Shown: positions 10,513 to 20,886 of the stretch, piece after piece
How the letters are laid out: the number at the start of each line of letters is the position of its first letter
Position numbering within the stretch: position 1 is the stretch's first letter
Source of the DNA: Streptosporangium carneum
Lineage (GTDB): Bacteria; Actinomycetota; Actinomycetes; Streptosporangiales; Streptosporangiaceae
Direction: 5' to 3'
DNA length: 64,000 nt
NCBI RefSeq assembly: GCF_027922005.1
Contig: NZ_BSEV01000002.1
Coordinates: 186,001 to 250,000, forward strand
Position numbers and translations under genes: made by a program
The notes under the pieces: generated by a model
Databases searched by the model: none
What the model saw: the letters and a program-made list of their open reading frames with translations, nothing else
Told to the model about the DNA's origin: nothing

Positions 10513-10977
10513 ATGAAACTAGAGCCCGGCGACGCCGCACCGGACTTCGCGCTTCCCGCCGCCGACGGCACCACCGTGTCCCTCGACGCCTACCGCGGCA
10601 AGCGCGTGATCCTCTACTTCTACCCCGCCGCGATGACCCCCGGCTGCACCAAGCAGGCCTGCGACTTCCGCGACAGCCTCGCCTCCCTGACCGCCGCGGA
10701 CTTCGTGGTGCTCGGCGTGTCGAAGGACACCCCGGCCAAGCTCGCCAAGTTCGTCGAGCACGACGCCCTGACCTTCCCGCTGCTGTCGGACCCCGGCCTG
10801 GAGGTCCACAAGGCCTACGGCGCCTACGGCGAGAAGACGATGTACGGCAAGACCACCCTCGGCGTGCTGCGCTCCACCTTCGTCATCGACCCCGACGGAA
10901 AAATCGAAAAAGCCCTCTACAACGTGAAGGCCACCGGCCATGTGGCCCGCCTTCGCCGCGAACTCGGGGTCGACTGA
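10513..10977 (+). CDS. bcp: Thioredoxin-dependent peroxiredoxin (Bcp/PrxQ)
   Basis: This enzyme reduces hydrogen peroxide and organic hydroperoxides with electrons from thioredoxin. It has 154 aa and one AhpC/TSA domain. The peroxidatic cysteine is Cys45 in AAMTPGCTKQAC and the resolving cysteine is Cys50, the atypical two-cysteine spacing of the PrxQ group. A GGAGGAG site precedes the ATG. It is a single cytoplasmic gene. The HNH-tRNA locus starts 75 bp downstream on the same strand. Confidence 0.95.
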   Translation: MKLEPGDAAPDFALPAADGTTVSLDAYRGKRVILYFYPAAMTPGCTKQACDFRDSLASLTAADFVVLGVSKDTPAKLAKFVEHDALTFPLLSDPGLEVHKAYGAYGEKTMYGKTTLGVLRSTFVIDPDGKIEKALYNVKATGHVARLRRELGVD

Positions 10978-11002: not shown

Positions 11003-11014
11003 GCATGCGCATGC
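11003..11014. promoter_or_regulatory. Palindrome upstream of the HNH gene
   Basis: GCATGCGCATGC is a perfect 12-bp palindrome immediately after a TTGACA hexamer (10995-11000). It could be an operator overlapping the -35 region of the HNH-tRNA transcript. No convincing -10 box is seen at 17 bp. Confidence 0.4.
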
Positions 11015-11051
11015 TCCAGGAACTGTCGGCCCCGTTCCGTAGCCTTGGGGC

Positions 11052-11519
11052 ATGCCGGCCAAGTACAAATACACCCCCGAAATGCTGGCCGAGGCCGCGG
11101 CGAGTTCCTTCAGCGTCGCCGACGTCCTGCGCCGACTCGGCATCACGATCGCGGGCGGAAATCACGCGCACATCAGCCGCCAGCTGAAGCGCCTCGGGAT
11201 CGACACCTCGCATTTTCTCGGCCAAGCACATCACCGCGGGCGGCGTTCGGCCCGACGCCTGTCGGCGGGGGAAGTCCTCCGGGTGCGACCACCGGGATCT
11301 CCCAGAACCAAGCCCCCCTTGCTTCGCCGGGCACTTCAGGAAGTCGGGGTGCCCTACCGCTGTAGTGCCTGTAAGATCGAGGGCATCTGGGAGGACGAGC
11401 CGCTCACGCTGCACGTCGACCATCTCAATGGCGACTGGCTCGACAACAGAATAAACAACTTGCGCTTTCTCTGCCCGAACTGCCACTCTCAGACAGAGAA
11501 TTTCGCGGGAAAAAACAAA
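11052..11519 (+). CDS. HNH endonuclease-like protein (frame open into the tRNA)
   Basis: The coordinates give the conserved part, about 156 codons. An N-terminal DNA-binding-like helix-turn-helix (residues 7-50, with SVADVLRRLGI and HISRQLKRLGI) is followed by an HNH nuclease core. Cys104, Cys107, Cys141 and Cys144 form the zinc-knuckle pairs (CSAC, CPNC). HVDHLNG (121-127) with His145 gives the HNH residues. There is no stop codon before the tRNA: codon 157 is the first triplet of the tRNA, and the frame stays open through it to 12119. A TTGGGG segment lies just upstream of the ATG at 11052. Whether it cuts DNA, RNA or its own locus is unknown. Confidence 0.75.
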
Positions 11520-11593
11520 GGGGCCGTAGCCCAACGGCAGGAGGCAGCGTCTTTAGGTGGCGCGCAGTATGGGTTCGAATCCCATCGGCCCCA
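11520..11593 (+). tRNA. Atypical class I tRNA with anticodon UAG
   Basis: The acceptor stem GGGGCCG/CGGCCCC is perfect (11520-11526 with 11586-11592), with discriminator A at 11593. The D arm has a 3-bp stem (GCC/GGC). The anticodon stem is GCGTC/GGCGC with loop TTTAGGT, giving anticodon UAG (11554-11556) followed by G37. The variable loop is only five bases (GCAGT). The T arm is ATGGG-TTCGAAT-CCCAT. Anticodon UAG reads CUA (leucine), but leucine tRNAs have a long variable arm, so the charged amino acid is uncertain. CCA is not encoded. The gene lies wholly inside the open HNH frame. Confidence 0.85.
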
Positions 11594-11630
11594 CAATAAA
11601 ATCAGAAAAGACGCGGTCAGTCTCAAGTCA

Positions 11631-11921
11631 GTGACCGTCAGCGTCACCCTGACGATCCAGGACGCCTTCTTCGTCGAAGAGCACGTCAGCCGCAGACACG
11701 CCGCGTCGAGGTCCGCCGCGATCCGCGAGGCGATCCGGCTGTTGCGCGAGTCCAGCCTCGAGCGGGACCGCGTCGCCGCGCTCGCGGGGTGCGACGGCGA
11801 CGGGAGGTCGCGGGGCGGGACGTCCGCGGTGTCTCGGGGTGCGGAGCGAGGCGGGGCGCCTCGGGGTGAGCGGGGCGCGGGAGGCGAGGTCGTGATCCCG
11901 CCTGGGCCCGCTGACGGGTCG
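11631..11921 (+). pseudogene. Ribbon-helix-helix antitoxin remnant
   Basis: From GTG 11631 the translation starts VTVSVTLTIQDAFFVEEHVS and continues with ASRSAAIREAIRLLRESSLE. This matches the short ribbon-helix-helix DNA-binding domain of actinomycete type II antitoxins. After about residue 50 the sequence turns into Arg/Gly-rich low complexity with no family features and runs to 12119 across the end of the opposing gene. No toxin gene follows. I read it as a decayed or orphan antitoxin. It is in the same frame as the HNH gene and starts 37 bp after the tRNA. Confidence 0.5.
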
Positions 11922-13271
11922 TCACCAGTCGGGCCCTCCGAGGACGGCTCTGGAGAGGTCGCCGAGGTCGAGCCGGCCACGGTGGGTGACCTCGCCCTCG
12001 GCGTTCAGGACGCGATACTCACACGCCCGCAGCCGCTCCTGGGGCAGGCCCGGCGAGAAGAGGGCGAAGCCGGTGGCGTCCGCCGTCCCTGCGGCGATCG
12101 TCCTGGCCCCGTCCCGTAGTTCGACGCGGCTTCCGGCGCCGCCGGGGACGTAGACGGCGGCGGAGTCCCGGGGGCCGGTCAGGGCCGTGGTCCACCCGAT
12201 CGGGCGGGACAGGTCCGGGGTTTCGACGACCCGGCCGAGGCGCTCCTGTTCGCTGGATCCGTCCGGTGCGGTGCGGGTCGTCTGGACGGCGAGGAAGGTG
12301 GGGGTGCCGGGGCCCGAGACGGTGGCGATGAGGGCGTCACGGCCGGGGCCGAGGGAGCCGCCCCACAGGTAGCGGTAGGTCAGGCGCGGGTGCGGGGTCA
12401 CGAGGGAGCCGAGGCTGTACAGCAGGCCCGCGGCCTGCTCGGTCTTCACGTGGCCGGTCGCCGCTCCGGCGGCGCGGGCGACGTCCGCCCGGAAGGAGGC
12501 GTCCTCGTCGTGCGAGGTGGAGATGCGCCACGGCAGTCGCAGGGGCCGTTCGGAGCTCTCCCAGAGAGGGATCTTGATCTCGGCCTGGCCGGGCTTGGCG
12601 TCGGGAACCGTGGTGAGCAGGAGGCCCTCGTCCGTTCTGAGGGTGCGGGTGACACGGGCGGGGGTGCCGTCGGGGCGGTAGGCGACGGACGGTGAGATCC
12701 GCACGGAGGTCATCCGCGGCGAGCCGAGCACCAGGAGCGGGCTGTCGCCCTCGGCGGAGAACCAGGCGATGACCTCGCTGTCCTTCGCTCCGCTGCCGCC
12801 TGCGACGAAGGGCTCCTGCTCGTCGAGCTCTCCCACGGGGGCTCCGGCTTCGCCGTACAGGACGAGGGCGCCGCTCATGGACCGCTTTCTCGGCGAGATC
12901 GCCACGACGACGCGGTGTCCGGCTCTGTCTCCGGCGTACAGGATCCGGGTGTCGGGGTCGTCGAGGCGGGTCCTGACGGCGTCCAGGAGGGCGGTGTCGG
13001 CTGCCAGTGATCCTCGGATCGGCCAGTCCGGCGCGTTCCGCCCCTGGACCAGGACCGTGTCCGGCCACAGGGCGGCATCGCGCAGGATGGCCGGTGCGGT
13101 GAGGCCGAGCACGGCGGTCAGTGCCAGCGCGCCGCCCAGGAGGGTTCTGTGACGCCGTCGGGTGCGGCGGATCCGGCGCAGGATCGCCGCGTGGGGGTCG
13201 GCGTGCTCGGGGACGGTCGCCGCTCGGGCGGCGAAGGTCTGGCGCAGCCGGTCCTCCATGGGCGTGGTCAT
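11922..13271 (-). CDS. Membrane protein partner of a SigE-family sigma factor (anti-sigma-like)
   Basis: A 449-aa single-pass protein. The N-terminal ~40 cytoplasmic residues are charged (EDRLRQTFAARAATVPEHAD, then IRRTRRRHR), one membrane helix spans about residues 42-62, and the rest is a large extracytoplasmic beta-rich domain. Its start overlaps the stop of the sigma gene by 4 bp (13268-13271), so the two are translationally coupled. That pairing and topology are those of anti-sigma or sensor partners of SigE-family sigma factors. No catalytic motif is seen and no zinc-binding anti-sigma motif is evident. Confidence 0.7.
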   Translation of the reverse strand: MTTPMEDRLRQTFAARAATVPEHADPHAAILRRIRRTRRRHRTLLGGALALTAVLGLTAPAILRDAALWPDTVLVQGRNAPDWPIRGSLAADTALLDAVRTRLDDPDTRILYAGDRAGHRVVVAISPRKRSMSGALVLYGEAGAPVGELDEQEPFVAGGSGAKDSEVIAWFSAEGDSPLLVLGSPRMTSVRISPSVAYRPDGTPARVTRTLRTDEGLLLTTVPDAKPGQAEIKIPLWESSERPLRLPWRISTSHDEDASFRADVARAAGAATGHVKTEQAAGLLYSLGSLVTPHPRLTYRYLWGGSLGPGRDALIATVSGPGTPTFLAVQTTRTAPDGSSEQERLGRVVETPDLSRPIGWTTALTGPRDSAAVYVPGGAGSRVELRDGARTIAAGTADATGFALFSPGLPQERLRACEYRVLNAEGEVTHRGRLDLGDLSRAVLGGPDW

Positions 13272-18372: not shown

Positions 18373-20886
18373 GTGCTCAGGACGACCCTGGCCGGGCTGC
18401 GGGCGCGCAAGCTGCGCCTGTTCCTGACCTCGCTGGCGATCGCGCTGGGAGTGGGCTTCATCGCGGGCACGTTCGTGCTCACCGACACCATGCAGGCCGG
18501 TTTCGCCCAGAAGTTCGGCGCGGCCGCCGACAAGATCGACGTCGCCGTGCTGCCCCTCCCCGGCAAGGAGAGCGGCGCCGCGCTCCTGCCGGAAGCCACG
18601 CTGAAGAAGATCCGCGCCGTGGACGGCGTCGCCGACGCCCAGGGGCTCGTGCAGGGCACCTCCGCGCTGATCGGCAAGGACGGCAAGGCGGCGGGAGACT
18701 TTCCCACCGCCGGGATCTCCATCGCCCAGGGGCCGCTGAACCGCACCTCGATCACCAGCGGCGTCGCCCCGAAGACCGCGACGCAGGCCGTGCTCGACGA
18801 GAACACCGCCAAGACGCGCGGCTTCAAGGTGGGCGACACCATCACCGTGCTGGACTCCGGGCAGGCCAAGCACGAGTTCACCCTGGTCGGCCTGTTCGAC
18901 GTCGGCCTCAACCAGGAGCTGGGCTTCAGCGGCGCGGTCGGCTACACCACGGACACGGCCAGGACGATGACCGGGGAGAACGGCTTCCGGCAGATCGACG
19001 TCGCGACCGCCGAGGGTGTGACCCAGGAGGCGGCGCGCGCCTCGATCGCCACGGCCCTCGGCGCCGGACACCAGGTCAAGACCGGCAAGCAGTACGCCGA
19101 CGACATGATCAAGGCCAACGGCGGCGACAGCCAGTTCCTCACGATGGGCCTGCTGCTGTTCGGCCTCGTCGCGATGTTCGTGGCCGCGCTGGTCATCTAC
19201 AACACCTTCAACATCCTGGTCGCCCAGCGCACCCGCGAGATGGCGCTGCTGCGCTGCATCGGCGCGACGCGCGGACAGGTGTTCGGCTCGATCCTGCTCG
19301 AGTCGGTCGTGGTCGGCCTGACGTCGTCGCTGCTGGGCCTGCTGCTCGGTTACGGCCTGGGCGCGGGGGCCCTCGTCGTGCTCCGCTCGGTCGGCGCTCC
19401 GATCCCCCCGGCGACCGCCGCCCTCACCCCGCGCACCGTCGTCCTGGCCATGCTCATCGGCGTCGTCGTCACGGTGGGCGCGGCGCTGCTGCCCGCCCGC
19501 TCCGCGACGAGGGTGGCGCCGATCGCGGCGCTGCGCGCCCAGGTCGAGGAGCGCACCTTCAGAGCCGGCGTGGTCCGCGTGATCTTCGCGACGCTGTTCC
19601 TGGTCGCGGGTGTGGGCACCACGGTGGCCGGGGTGAACATGAACCCCGGGCAGGTTCCGCTCATCGTCGTCATGGTGGGCGGCTCGCTGGTCTTCTTCGC
19701 GGTGCTGATCCTCGGACCGGTGATCGTCAAGCCGCTCGGCGCCTTCGTCGGCTGGCTGCCCGGCAAGATCTTCGGAGTGCCCGGCAGGCTGGCCCTGGAC
19801 AACTCGGGGCGCAATCCCAAGCGGTCCGCGACCACGACCGTGGCGCTCACCGTGGGCGTGACGCTGATGACGCTCATCTCGGTCCTCACCGGCACGCTGC
19901 GGCTGACCTACTCCCAGAAGCTCGACGACCAGTTCCCCGTCGACTACATGCTCCTGGCCCAGGACCGCAGCTCGAGCCTGCCGCGCGCGCTGGCCGAGGA
20001 CCTGCGGAGCAGGCCGGAGCTGACCTCGGTCGTCGCCCTGCGCGAGGTCGACGCCAAGGCCGGGAACAAGGGCGGCACGTACGAGGCGGGGACGTTCACC
20101 GCGTCGCCGGACTTCAGGCCGGACTTCACCTCGGGTTCGATCGACGCCCTCAAGCCGGGAACCGCGGCGGTCGCCGACCACGTGGCGAAGGACCTCGGGG
20201 TCAAGGTCGGCGACCGGATCCCGTTGCGCACGACGAAGGCGGGGCGGGTCGAGCTCAGGGTCGTCGGCGTCTTCGACTCCCAGCAGACGGACCTGGCGGG
20301 CGTGACCGTGCCCGCGGACGAGTTCGACCGCTACTTCGGCGCGGTCGCCGACCAGCGGGTGCTGGTCAACGCCAAGGACGGCGTCAGCCTTGACGTGGCG
20401 CGCAAGGTGGTCGAGGCCGCGGCCCAGCCGTACCCGACGGCGAAGGTGGCCAGCTCGACGGATATCAGGGGCGAGTTCGACGAGGCGCTCGACATGGTCG
20501 TGATGATCATCACGGGCCTGCTGGGGCTGGCGGTGCTGATCTCGCTGCTGGGCATCGCCAACACGCTGTCCCTGTCGGTCCACGAGCGGACCAGGGAGTC
20601 GGCGCTGCTGCGGGCCCTGGGCCTGACCCGGCCGCAGCTGCGGGGGATGCTCTCGGTCGAGGCGCTGATCCTGGGGCTCATCGGGGCTCTGGTCGGCGTG
20701 GTGCTCGGCGTCACGTTCGGCTGGGCCGCGGCGCGGACGGCGACGACCGATGTCGTCTTCACCCTTCCCGTGCCGCAGATCCTGGCGTTCGTCGCGCTGT
20801 CCGGCCTGGCCGGGGTGATCGCCGCCGTGCTGCCCGCCCGCAAGGCGGCGCGGGCCTCGATCGTGAACTCGCTGGCCAGCGGCTGA
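18373..20886 (+). CDS. ABC transporter permease with two FtsX domains
   Basis: An 837-aa permease. The first helix is at about residues 15-36, followed by a MacB-type extracytoplasmic domain. A first FtsX domain (about 250-400) carries [20 protein letters not shown]. After a linker comes a second extracytoplasmic domain, then a second FtsX domain (about 710-830) with [20 protein letters not shown]. This tandem layout is usual for actinomycete MacB-like exporters. The GTG start follows the ATPase stop after one base. A strong hairpin (20905-20939) follows. Confidence 0.94.

Follow-up and report, generated by a model that had tools for sequence, protein, structure and literature searches.

Background

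The homing endonuclease SegB, reportedly the subject of a study by Brok-Volchanskaya in 2008, offers a point of comparison for a locus of the actinobacterium Streptosporangium carneum, at which the reading frame of an HNH nuclease gene runs without a stop into and through a tRNA-Leu(UAG) gene; the locus lies in a 64,000-nucleotide (nt) stretch of DNA (contig NZ_BSEV01000002.1, positions 186,001 to 250,000 of the forward strand; hereafter the window). In phages T4 and T6, SegB is a free-standing homing endonuclease encoded among tRNA genes (PMC2988022, PMC13096335). The target listed for T4 SegB is a tRNA intergenic region, and the gene shows high-frequency inheritance in T4 x T2 crosses (PMC2988022); the SegB family co-localises with tRNAs, and the accessible portions of these accounts report no favoured tRNA isotype (PMC2988022, PMC13096335). 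Promoters of neighbouring genes embedded in phage homing endonuclease genes have been argued to favour retention of the latter (PMC2988022). In actinobacterial chromosomes, an HNH gene is found among the tRNA genes of horizontally acquired mycobacterial tRNA clusters, and these HNH genes have been proposed to be phage-derived (PMC6582537).

We propose, with a probability that we put at roughly 0.72, that the window locus represents a tRNA-targeting homing endonuclease that has become chromosomally fixed at the sole tRNA-Leu(UAG) gene, apparently replacing the promoter of this tRNA, and that is exchanged as a block comprising the HNH gene, the tRNA and a ribbon-helix-helix (RHH) domain. Open-access literature searches returned no description of this locus or of an open reading frame (ORF) read through such a tRNA. 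Apparently undescribed in that literature are the fixation of such a nuclease at a single-copy core tRNA in bacterial chromosomes, the use of tRNA nucleotides U8-A9-G10 as the stop codon of a gene, and a reading frame conserved across a tRNA and on into an additional domain.

The window locus

An earlier note, made from the sequence alone, had claimed that the HNH frame has no stop before the tRNA, that the acceptor stem starts with codon 157 and that the frame stays open through the tRNA and beyond. Our coordinates bear this out: the 156 codons that begin with the ATG at 11052 end at 11519, ARAGORN places the tRNA at 11520-11594, and the stop is reached at 12117-12119, giving an ORF of 355 amino acids. 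That note, right as it was on coordinates and frame, did not report the RHH domain, nor did it notice the phage relatives, the promoter of damage type or the stop at U8-A9-G10. The locus consists of the following parts:

10513..10977, plus strand: AhpC/TSA-family peroxiredoxin gene, which we take to be bcp, the conserved upstream flank (ORF; PF00578, E 6.3e-42; synteny)
11023..11045, plus strand: PafBC/RecA-NDp-type promoter motif, CTGTCGGCC-N8-TAGCCT (match to published consensus)
11052..11519, plus strand: HNH endonuclease coding part, 156 codons (468 nt), ATG at 11052 (ORF, domain match, alignment)
11520..11594, plus strand: tRNA-Leu(UAG) with a short variable arm, in frame as codons 157-181 of the ORF (ARAGORN)
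11594..11624, plus strand: linker of 31 nt, from the tRNA discriminator base to the RHH domain
11625..11762, plus strand: RHH domain in the HNH frame (profile matches, in-frame loci, ratio of non-synonymous to synonymous polymorphism, pN/pS)
11763..12119, plus strand: C-terminal extension up to the stop (ORF)

The HNH part combines a helical module at the N-terminus with a Cys-type HNH domain at the C-terminus, in which DH, N and CPNCH are conserved. The predicted tryptic stretch that would span tRNA-encoded residues reads QEAASLGGAQYGFESHRPHNK. The C-terminal extension is the longest among the compared loci and overlaps a convergent minus-strand ORF (11922-13271), and hence its last part is probably non-functional sequence. 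Use of CUA codons by the ORF itself was considered and rejected, as none of its 356 codons is CUA.

A phage nuclease family that often ends at tRNAs

The window protein matches PF01844 (HNH) above the cut-off (E 3.2e-5), and 12 of 12 fused ORFs match this model at 1e-3. Across 29 aligned HNH sequences, D123, H124, N136, C104, C107, C141, C144 and H145 are invariant, and we take the aspartate, asparagine, histidines and cysteines among them to fill the catalytic and zinc-binding roles. The nearest named relative, from Streptosporangium minutum, is 88% identical. No sequence relative of the HNH part was found in the PDB at E 0.1, and no GIY-YIG domain is listed among the matches of the window protein, which has HNH in its place.

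The best PHROG family, phrog_10822, covers all of residues 1-156 (E 2.6e-49), and the top phage records are 48-50% identical to the window HNH over 91-96% of the query. In three of five phage records, namely Citrobacter phage Michonne, Pseudomonas phage phiPsa347 and Vibrio phage D69, an HNH gene whose product is 45-50% identical to that of the window stands directly before or overlaps a tRNA-Leu(UAG) within a tRNA array; in the Rhodococcus phage Dorin it precedes a tRNA-Gly, and in LCK69 it lies 175 nt before a tRNA-Arg. We extended this to the best 80 of at least 424 viral relatives (75 distinct loci), so that the counts describe the closest relatives only. A tRNA is present in the retrieved stretch of all 75; the HNH gene ends inside a same-strand tRNA in 22, nine of which have the stop exactly on tRNA nucleotides 8-10, and reads through a whole tRNA-Leu(UAG) in one. 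Other ends lie 0-15 nt before a tRNA (10 loci), 16-300 nt before it (12) or further off (11), and 19 of the 75 have no same-strand tRNA downstream. Different tRNAs serve as partners within 300 nt, most often Leu-UAG (12) and Leu-UAA (10), as counted over the 80 loci with duplicates included. As these closest viral relatives often end in or at tRNAs, termination there is a habit of the HNH family and not a quirk of the window.

Repeats of the N-terminal HNH module of about 55 residues, two tandem HNH genes before the tRNA-Leu(UAG), or both, were seen in L016-L021 (Streptomyces), L124, L125, L129, L131-L133, L135-L138 and L140-L143 (L numbers are our locus labels); to judge from the sequences, they look like an expanding DNA-binding array. 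Plasmid-borne spread was considered and rejected, a plasmid collection having yielded one weak, partial match.

Linkage to a single tRNA and empty sites

Linkage was scanned in 53 loci, made up of the window, 22 named genome contigs and 30 loci from a search of the family, at least seven of them being one locus seen twice. A tRNA-Leu(UAG) stands beside the HNH gene or its remnant in 52, the earlier note having proposed a check of homologs for such a tRNA; the exception, L083, is a weak and distant HNH hit without tRNA-Leu(UAG). A profile search across the class found matches in 66 of 394 genomes, and 30 of the 30 loci retrieved from it carry a tRNA-Leu(UAG), short- or long-armed, within 1 kb, often after two tandem HNH genes. 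Nine of these 30 come from genomes already seen, and the set is free of weaker and partial hits, so the linkage is established here for the subfamily. The HNH gene lies on the other side of the tRNA, convergent with it, in L076, L078 and L082. Because it thus occurs on either side, and next to a short- or a long-arm Leu-UAG, the tRNA is the constant element within this HNH subfamily, side and arm class being variable.

An HNH match of any kind is present in 37 of 150 genomes of the family and absent from 113. The gene order bcp-tRNA-Leu(UAG) recurs in 44 distinct syntenic loci without the nuclease (HNH-less loci), so that a constant insertion site, bcp-[HNH]-tRNA-Leu(UAG), can be set against syntenic empty sites, bcp-tRNA. 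Degenerate HNH remnants still stand beside the tRNA in L022, L075, L077 and L079-L082. An RHH domain follows the tRNA in 32 of 54 loci that carry the nuclease (HNH-containing loci) versus none of the 41 HNH-less loci with at least 240 nt of downstream sequence (L231, L238 and L247 have less); it therefore comes and goes with the HNH gene, though it lies on the far side of the tRNA. The pooled counts rest on 98 loci that remained of 141 after removal of duplicates, for those of phase we set aside loci whose tRNA is long-armed or on the opposite strand or whose gap exceeds 60 nt, and the loci are related, so that the counts are not independent.

The tRNA-Leu(UAG)

Bacterial tRNA-Leu normally has a long (class II) variable arm, which the 75-nt tRNA gene of the window does not possess, and the earlier note had taken this tRNA to be non-standard. 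That view does not hold for this organism. Typing covered the 63 Rfam tRNA hits of the genome (184 contigs, completeness 100) without exception. The short arm is common to its Leu-UAA, Leu-CAA and Leu-UAG, that is, to three of five tRNA-Leu (L098, L101 and window 11520-11594), Leu-GAG and Leu-CAG having long arms. A short-arm tRNA-Leu model was matched in 150 of 150 family genomes, with the anticodons verified for part of these only; the locus in genomes G100, G120 and G122 carries a long-armed Leu-UAG. The window tRNA is an ordinary short-arm family member and not an odd extra. It is the only Leu-UAG found in the genome, and an extra or decoy tRNA was accordingly rejected. Neither open-access literature searches nor the accessible part of a review of unusual tRNAs (PMC7609411) yielded an account of short-arm tRNA-Leu in Streptosporangiaceae.

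Acceptor, anticodon-stem and T-stem pairs are all intact in 47 HNH-containing short-arm tRNAs (the D stem was excluded), with 14 different anticodon stems among them. Since every examined pair is intact despite this variety, the tRNAs of HNH-containing loci are maintained by selection as tRNAs. The window tRNA has the anticodon UAG, and the discriminator base is A73 in all 32 RHH loci.

A separate ARAGORN call in the window, a tRNA-Gly(gcc) at 18517-18601 on the minus strand, is probably a false positive, because the Rfam tRNA search of the genome lists nothing there.

The RHH domain and the register across the tRNA

A profile of 14 RHH members matches MazE9 (E 3.3e-9) and ParD (E 2e-4), both of solved structure, and RHH_1 (PF01402) matches downstream of the window tRNA with an E of 7.4e-4, just below the cut-off. 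The domain lies in the HNH frame in 25 of 32 RHH loci. Measured to the discriminator base, the tRNA is mostly 73 or 74 nt long, with D-loop indels at two different places; among 33 RHH-containing loci, 17 combine start phase 0 with 74 nt and 12 combine phase 1 with 73 nt (four do not fit), so that start phase and tRNA length compensate to hold the register. Start phase is associated with the presence of RHH (Fisher p 8e-6). The linkers of in-frame loci measure 31, 49, 52, 70 or 73 nt, all 1 mod 3 (L296 is in frame with a linker that is not measurable). In the HNH frame pN/pS over the RHH is 0.49 in 13 in-frame loci and 0.25 in six, against 1.0-2.9 in other frames, and the domain is under purifying selection across relatives.

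The tRNA itself is open in the HNH frame in 31 of 44 HNH-containing loci, all of them in the two registers that lead this frame into the RHH, and closed in the 13 that are in other registers; in eight of 11 RHH-less loci the HNH stop is the tRNA's own U8-A9-G10. HNH-less tRNAs placed in the same two registers are open in 23 of 43 cases (6 of 18 with 74 nt, 17 of 25 with 73 nt), versus 31 of 31 HNH-containing tRNAs (Fisher p 2e-6, which ignores kinship). As about half of the HNH-less tRNAs would be open anyway, openness by itself is weak evidence, and a stop-free ORF could happen to cross a neighbouring tRNA in GC-rich DNA. We regard such an accident as exceedingly improbable and rejected it as the whole story in view of the register (25 of 32), the U8-A9-G10 stops, the excess of openness and the tests for selection; conserved openness and register together exceed chance.

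Conservation in register is what we observe, and a protein in which HNH and RHH are fused would be the reading that we prefer. Several observations tell against this reading or favour an RHH encoded by a separate gene with its own start (often GTG or ATG at about the second codon). Translation of the RHH would then be independent or coupled, and the common frame would be an inheritance without use for fusion. An ATG, GTG or TTG is available near the RHH start in 19 of 22 in-frame loci. The RHH is out of register in seven of 32 loci and hence persists without the HNH frame, in L008, L056, L062 and L294 beside a full-length HNH match and in L022, L075 and L298 beside a damaged or partial one. 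Coding constraint on the linker is weak in the HNH frame (pN/pS 0.68 and 0.78, with 0.67 for another frame in the second group), and L003 has an in-frame TGA within the HNH. Of the standard domain models, the Pfam RHH model is matched at 1e-3 by one of 12 members, and that one below the cut-off, and TIGR02606 by 11 of 14 members at 0.01, in the window below the cut-off. The predicted structure of the fused window ORF is poor (mean predicted local distance difference test score, pLDDT, 54.8), moderate confidence being limited to the N-terminal helices and two RHH helices. Lastly, the closest relatives of solved structure, MazE9 and ParD, are free-standing antitoxins. We nevertheless consider a separate RHH gene unlikely, given that the register is held despite varying tRNA length, junction and linker, that the matched tRNAs of HNH-containing loci are open without exception, that the linker is stop-free in the HNH frame and has stops in the others (4 and 5 in one group, 13 and 2 in another), and that three of the 22 in-frame loci (L002, L003 and L005) lack any of the usual start codons.

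The kinship of the RHH to antitoxins, together with PADLOC matches of the HNH protein to the homing endonuclease HEase (E 2.7e-13) and to ZorE (E 4.5e-10, over the HNH fold only), could alternatively suggest a defence or toxin system, with the nuclease directed at tRNA molecules or phage DNA and either the tRNA serving as a resistant or decoy copy or the RHH restraining the nuclease. This is very improbable in our estimate. The Cys-type HNH is a DNA-cutting fold, and action of the nuclease on the tRNA molecule is unlikely; the linked tRNA, as the only Leu-UAG found, is no decoy; the retrieved phage relatives sit in phage tRNA arrays; and 22 of the 54 HNH-containing loci do without the RHH.

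A damage-type promoter, apparently in place of that of the tRNA

The motif at 11023-11045 fits the core of the PafBC/RecA-NDp consensus, tTGTCRgtg-8 nt-TannnT (PMC5656591), departing from it at the first t, where it has C, and at the final tg, where it has CC; no other strict match occurs on either strand of the window. It ends 6 nt before the ATG, and for this reason the HNH mRNA is likely to be leaderless. The pattern NTGTCRG-N10-TANNNT is found upstream of HNH in 25 of 43 loci and in none of 44 HNH-less intergenic regions, and shuffles give a mean of 0.02 of 43 (the shuffle controls, here and for TANNNT, preserve base composition only). Of the HNH-less loci, 19 of 44 have a TANNNT no more than 50 nt from the tRNA, where shuffles predict 6.0; of the HNH-containing ones 4 of 44 do, where shuffles predict 13.3 (Fisher 5e-4). 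The native tRNA promoter seems to have been lost where the HNH gene is present.

Three considerations weaken this inference of promoter replacement. The strict motif is missing upstream of HNH in 18 of 43 loci, comprising all six of Streptomyces and 12 others. TANNNT is also missing in 25 of the 44 HNH-less loci, and the stretch concerned is coding, and hence constrained, in HNH-containing ones. A damage promoter would be odd as the sole promoter of a needed tRNA, and transcription might read through from bcp.

With a 7-nt spacer, which leaves out the window copy, the leaderless pattern occurs 16 times in the genome and not once in a reversed control. Eight of the 16 downstream proteins were scanned; they include uvrB, uvrC and a WYL regulator, and the presence of uvrB and uvrC behind the motif supports the view that these sites mark a damage regulon. 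Among these matches (L308-L323), four of the eight scanned proteins (L308, L311, L317 and L321) lack a Pfam match at 1e-5 and might represent unknown damage-response genes. Inspection by eye also revealed an imperfect inverted repeat (GCCCCAAG/CTTGGGGC in relatives; about 11012-11051 in the window) that flanks the HNH promoter and reaches the start codon, a possible candidate operator.

Exchange and inheritance

Comparison of L002 with L005 reveals a replaced block between near-identical flanks. In 60-nt steps the two are 95-100% identical over bcp and the start of HNH, only 58-87% identical from about -320 to +218 relative to the tRNA start, which spans most of HNH, the tRNA and the RHH core, and mostly 90-100% identical again from 218 to about 1,100 nt past it. 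The downstream breakpoint falls within the RHH tail, about 218 nt past the tRNA start, the tails being near-identical and the RHH cores different. L008 and L010 display the same pattern, L010 being without RHH. Clear block replacement was seen in these two of seven compared pairs; three pairs set an HNH-less against an HNH-containing locus, and two (window/L002 and L062/L298) are uninformative. Over 34 loci the tRNA tracks HNH (partial correlation 0.33, given bcp) and not bcp (-0.08, given HNH). The earlier note had suggested a linked unit in which the nuclease might act on the tRNA, its gene or its target site, or spread with it; linkage and joint exchange are what these data and the 52 of 53 linked loci bear out.

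HNH divergence follows that of bcp over the same loci (Spearman 0.79), so the gene is passed on mainly by vertical descent, alongside which the HNH-tRNA-RHH block has been exchanged. Homing by the element may therefore have ceased; active homing and a domesticated nuclease often cannot be told apart from sequence alone (PMC10448857). One might go further and regard the HNH gene as immobile and linked to the tRNA by vertical descent, kept only because it supplies the tRNA with a leader containing a promoter or because it serves the host as a nuclease inducible by damage, a view that the correlation with bcp, the degenerate remnants that persist by the tRNA and the damage-type promoter would all suit. 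We hold this to be possible but doubtful, as it leaves unaccounted for the patchy presence in 37 of 150 family genomes, the block exchange, the insertions on either side of the tRNA and the partnership with both long-arm and short-arm Leu-UAG.

The tRNAs of the two kinds of loci also differ. At a bcp identity of 0.90-0.95, tRNA identity is 74.6% between HNH-containing and HNH-less loci (45 pairs), 99.8% among HNH-less pairs (13) and 85% among HNH-containing pairs (112), figures that rest on few lineages; at a bcp identity of 0.75-0.80 the three classes are nearly alike (80.7, 83.0 and 81.0%). The divergence in the closer range and the joint exchange of HNH and tRNA would fit a cleave-and-rescue element: the nuclease would destroy the tRNA-Leu(UAG) gene already resident, and the cell would be rescued by the divergent, cut-resistant tRNA of the cassette. 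With that tRNA embedded in the frame of the nuclease, processing by RNase P, which would yield the tRNA and break the nuclease mRNA, and synthesis of the full-length HNH-RHH form would exclude each other. Such an element might in this way include a switch, slow tRNA processing or a firing damage promoter being the only conditions under which the long form is made, and the antitoxin-like RHH could assist in target finding or repress the promoter. We offer this as a tentative scheme that is unlikely to be right as it stands.

A proposed course of events

Under the homing interpretation that we prefer, a free-standing HNH homing endonuclease of the phage tRNA-array family would have settled between bcp and tRNA-Leu(UAG). 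Judging from its family, its position and the block exchange, the nuclease would cut HNH-less tRNA-Leu(UAG) loci, and repair would copy the element in along with the adjoining tRNA. Lacking a stop of its own, the HNH ORF would end on U8-A9-G10 of the tRNA or run through tRNA and linker into the RHH, a domain that may bind DNA close to the target or act as a repressor of the promoter. The element would have supplanted the tRNA's own promoter, the loss of which is indicated statistically, with a PafBC-type DNA-damage promoter. As that native promoter seems to be replaced, deletion of the element would then silence a tRNA that the cell probably needs. From any single transcript the cell would obtain one product and not both: the long nuclease, or the mature tRNA once RNase P and 3' processing have released it. 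These considerations suggest a selfish gene tied to a tRNA that is likely to be needed.

Conclusions

If this proposal is true, it illustrates how a bacterial chromosome can end up with a selfish nuclease that is difficult to lose, the routes to retention being overlap with a single-copy tRNA, supply of a promoter, and use of tRNA bases as stop codon or coding sequence. The locus further offers a case, open to testing, in which a single stretch of DNA is under selection as a tRNA and, at once, as part of a protein read in frame. It would likewise be an example of homing into a core tRNA gene of bacteria, instead of phages, and of a transcript for which tRNA processing and translation compete.

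Among known systems, phages Michonne, phiPsa347 and D69 come close, in that their HNH gene stands directly before or overlaps tRNA-Leu(UAG) and may fall in phrog_10822, the best PHROG match of the window protein; they differ in that their arrays hold many tRNAs, with the partner tRNA varying over the family, whereas the chromosomal locus has a single one. The mycobacterial clusters differ, by their description, in being large extra sets of tRNAs rather than a native single Leu-UAG locus, and the accessible part of that account reports no overlap of genes (PMC6582537). The T4 homing endonucleases with embedded promoters resemble the present case in that holding a neighbour's promoter favours retention, but the genes concerned are essential phage genes there and a cellular tRNA here (PMC2988022). 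MazE9 and ParD share the RHH domain, which in our locus lies in frame behind HNH and tRNA; a listing of the ORFs downstream, without a search against toxin families, identified no partner toxin. SegB, in turn, is a GIY-YIG and not an HNH enzyme and belongs to a phage rather than a chromosome, and its accounts, in their accessible portions, include neither reading through a tRNA nor an RHH domain (PMC2988022, PMC13096335). The earlier note saw no described system that would explain the overlap; the homing endonucleases of phage tRNA regions, such as SegB, provide a good functional model for the window locus.

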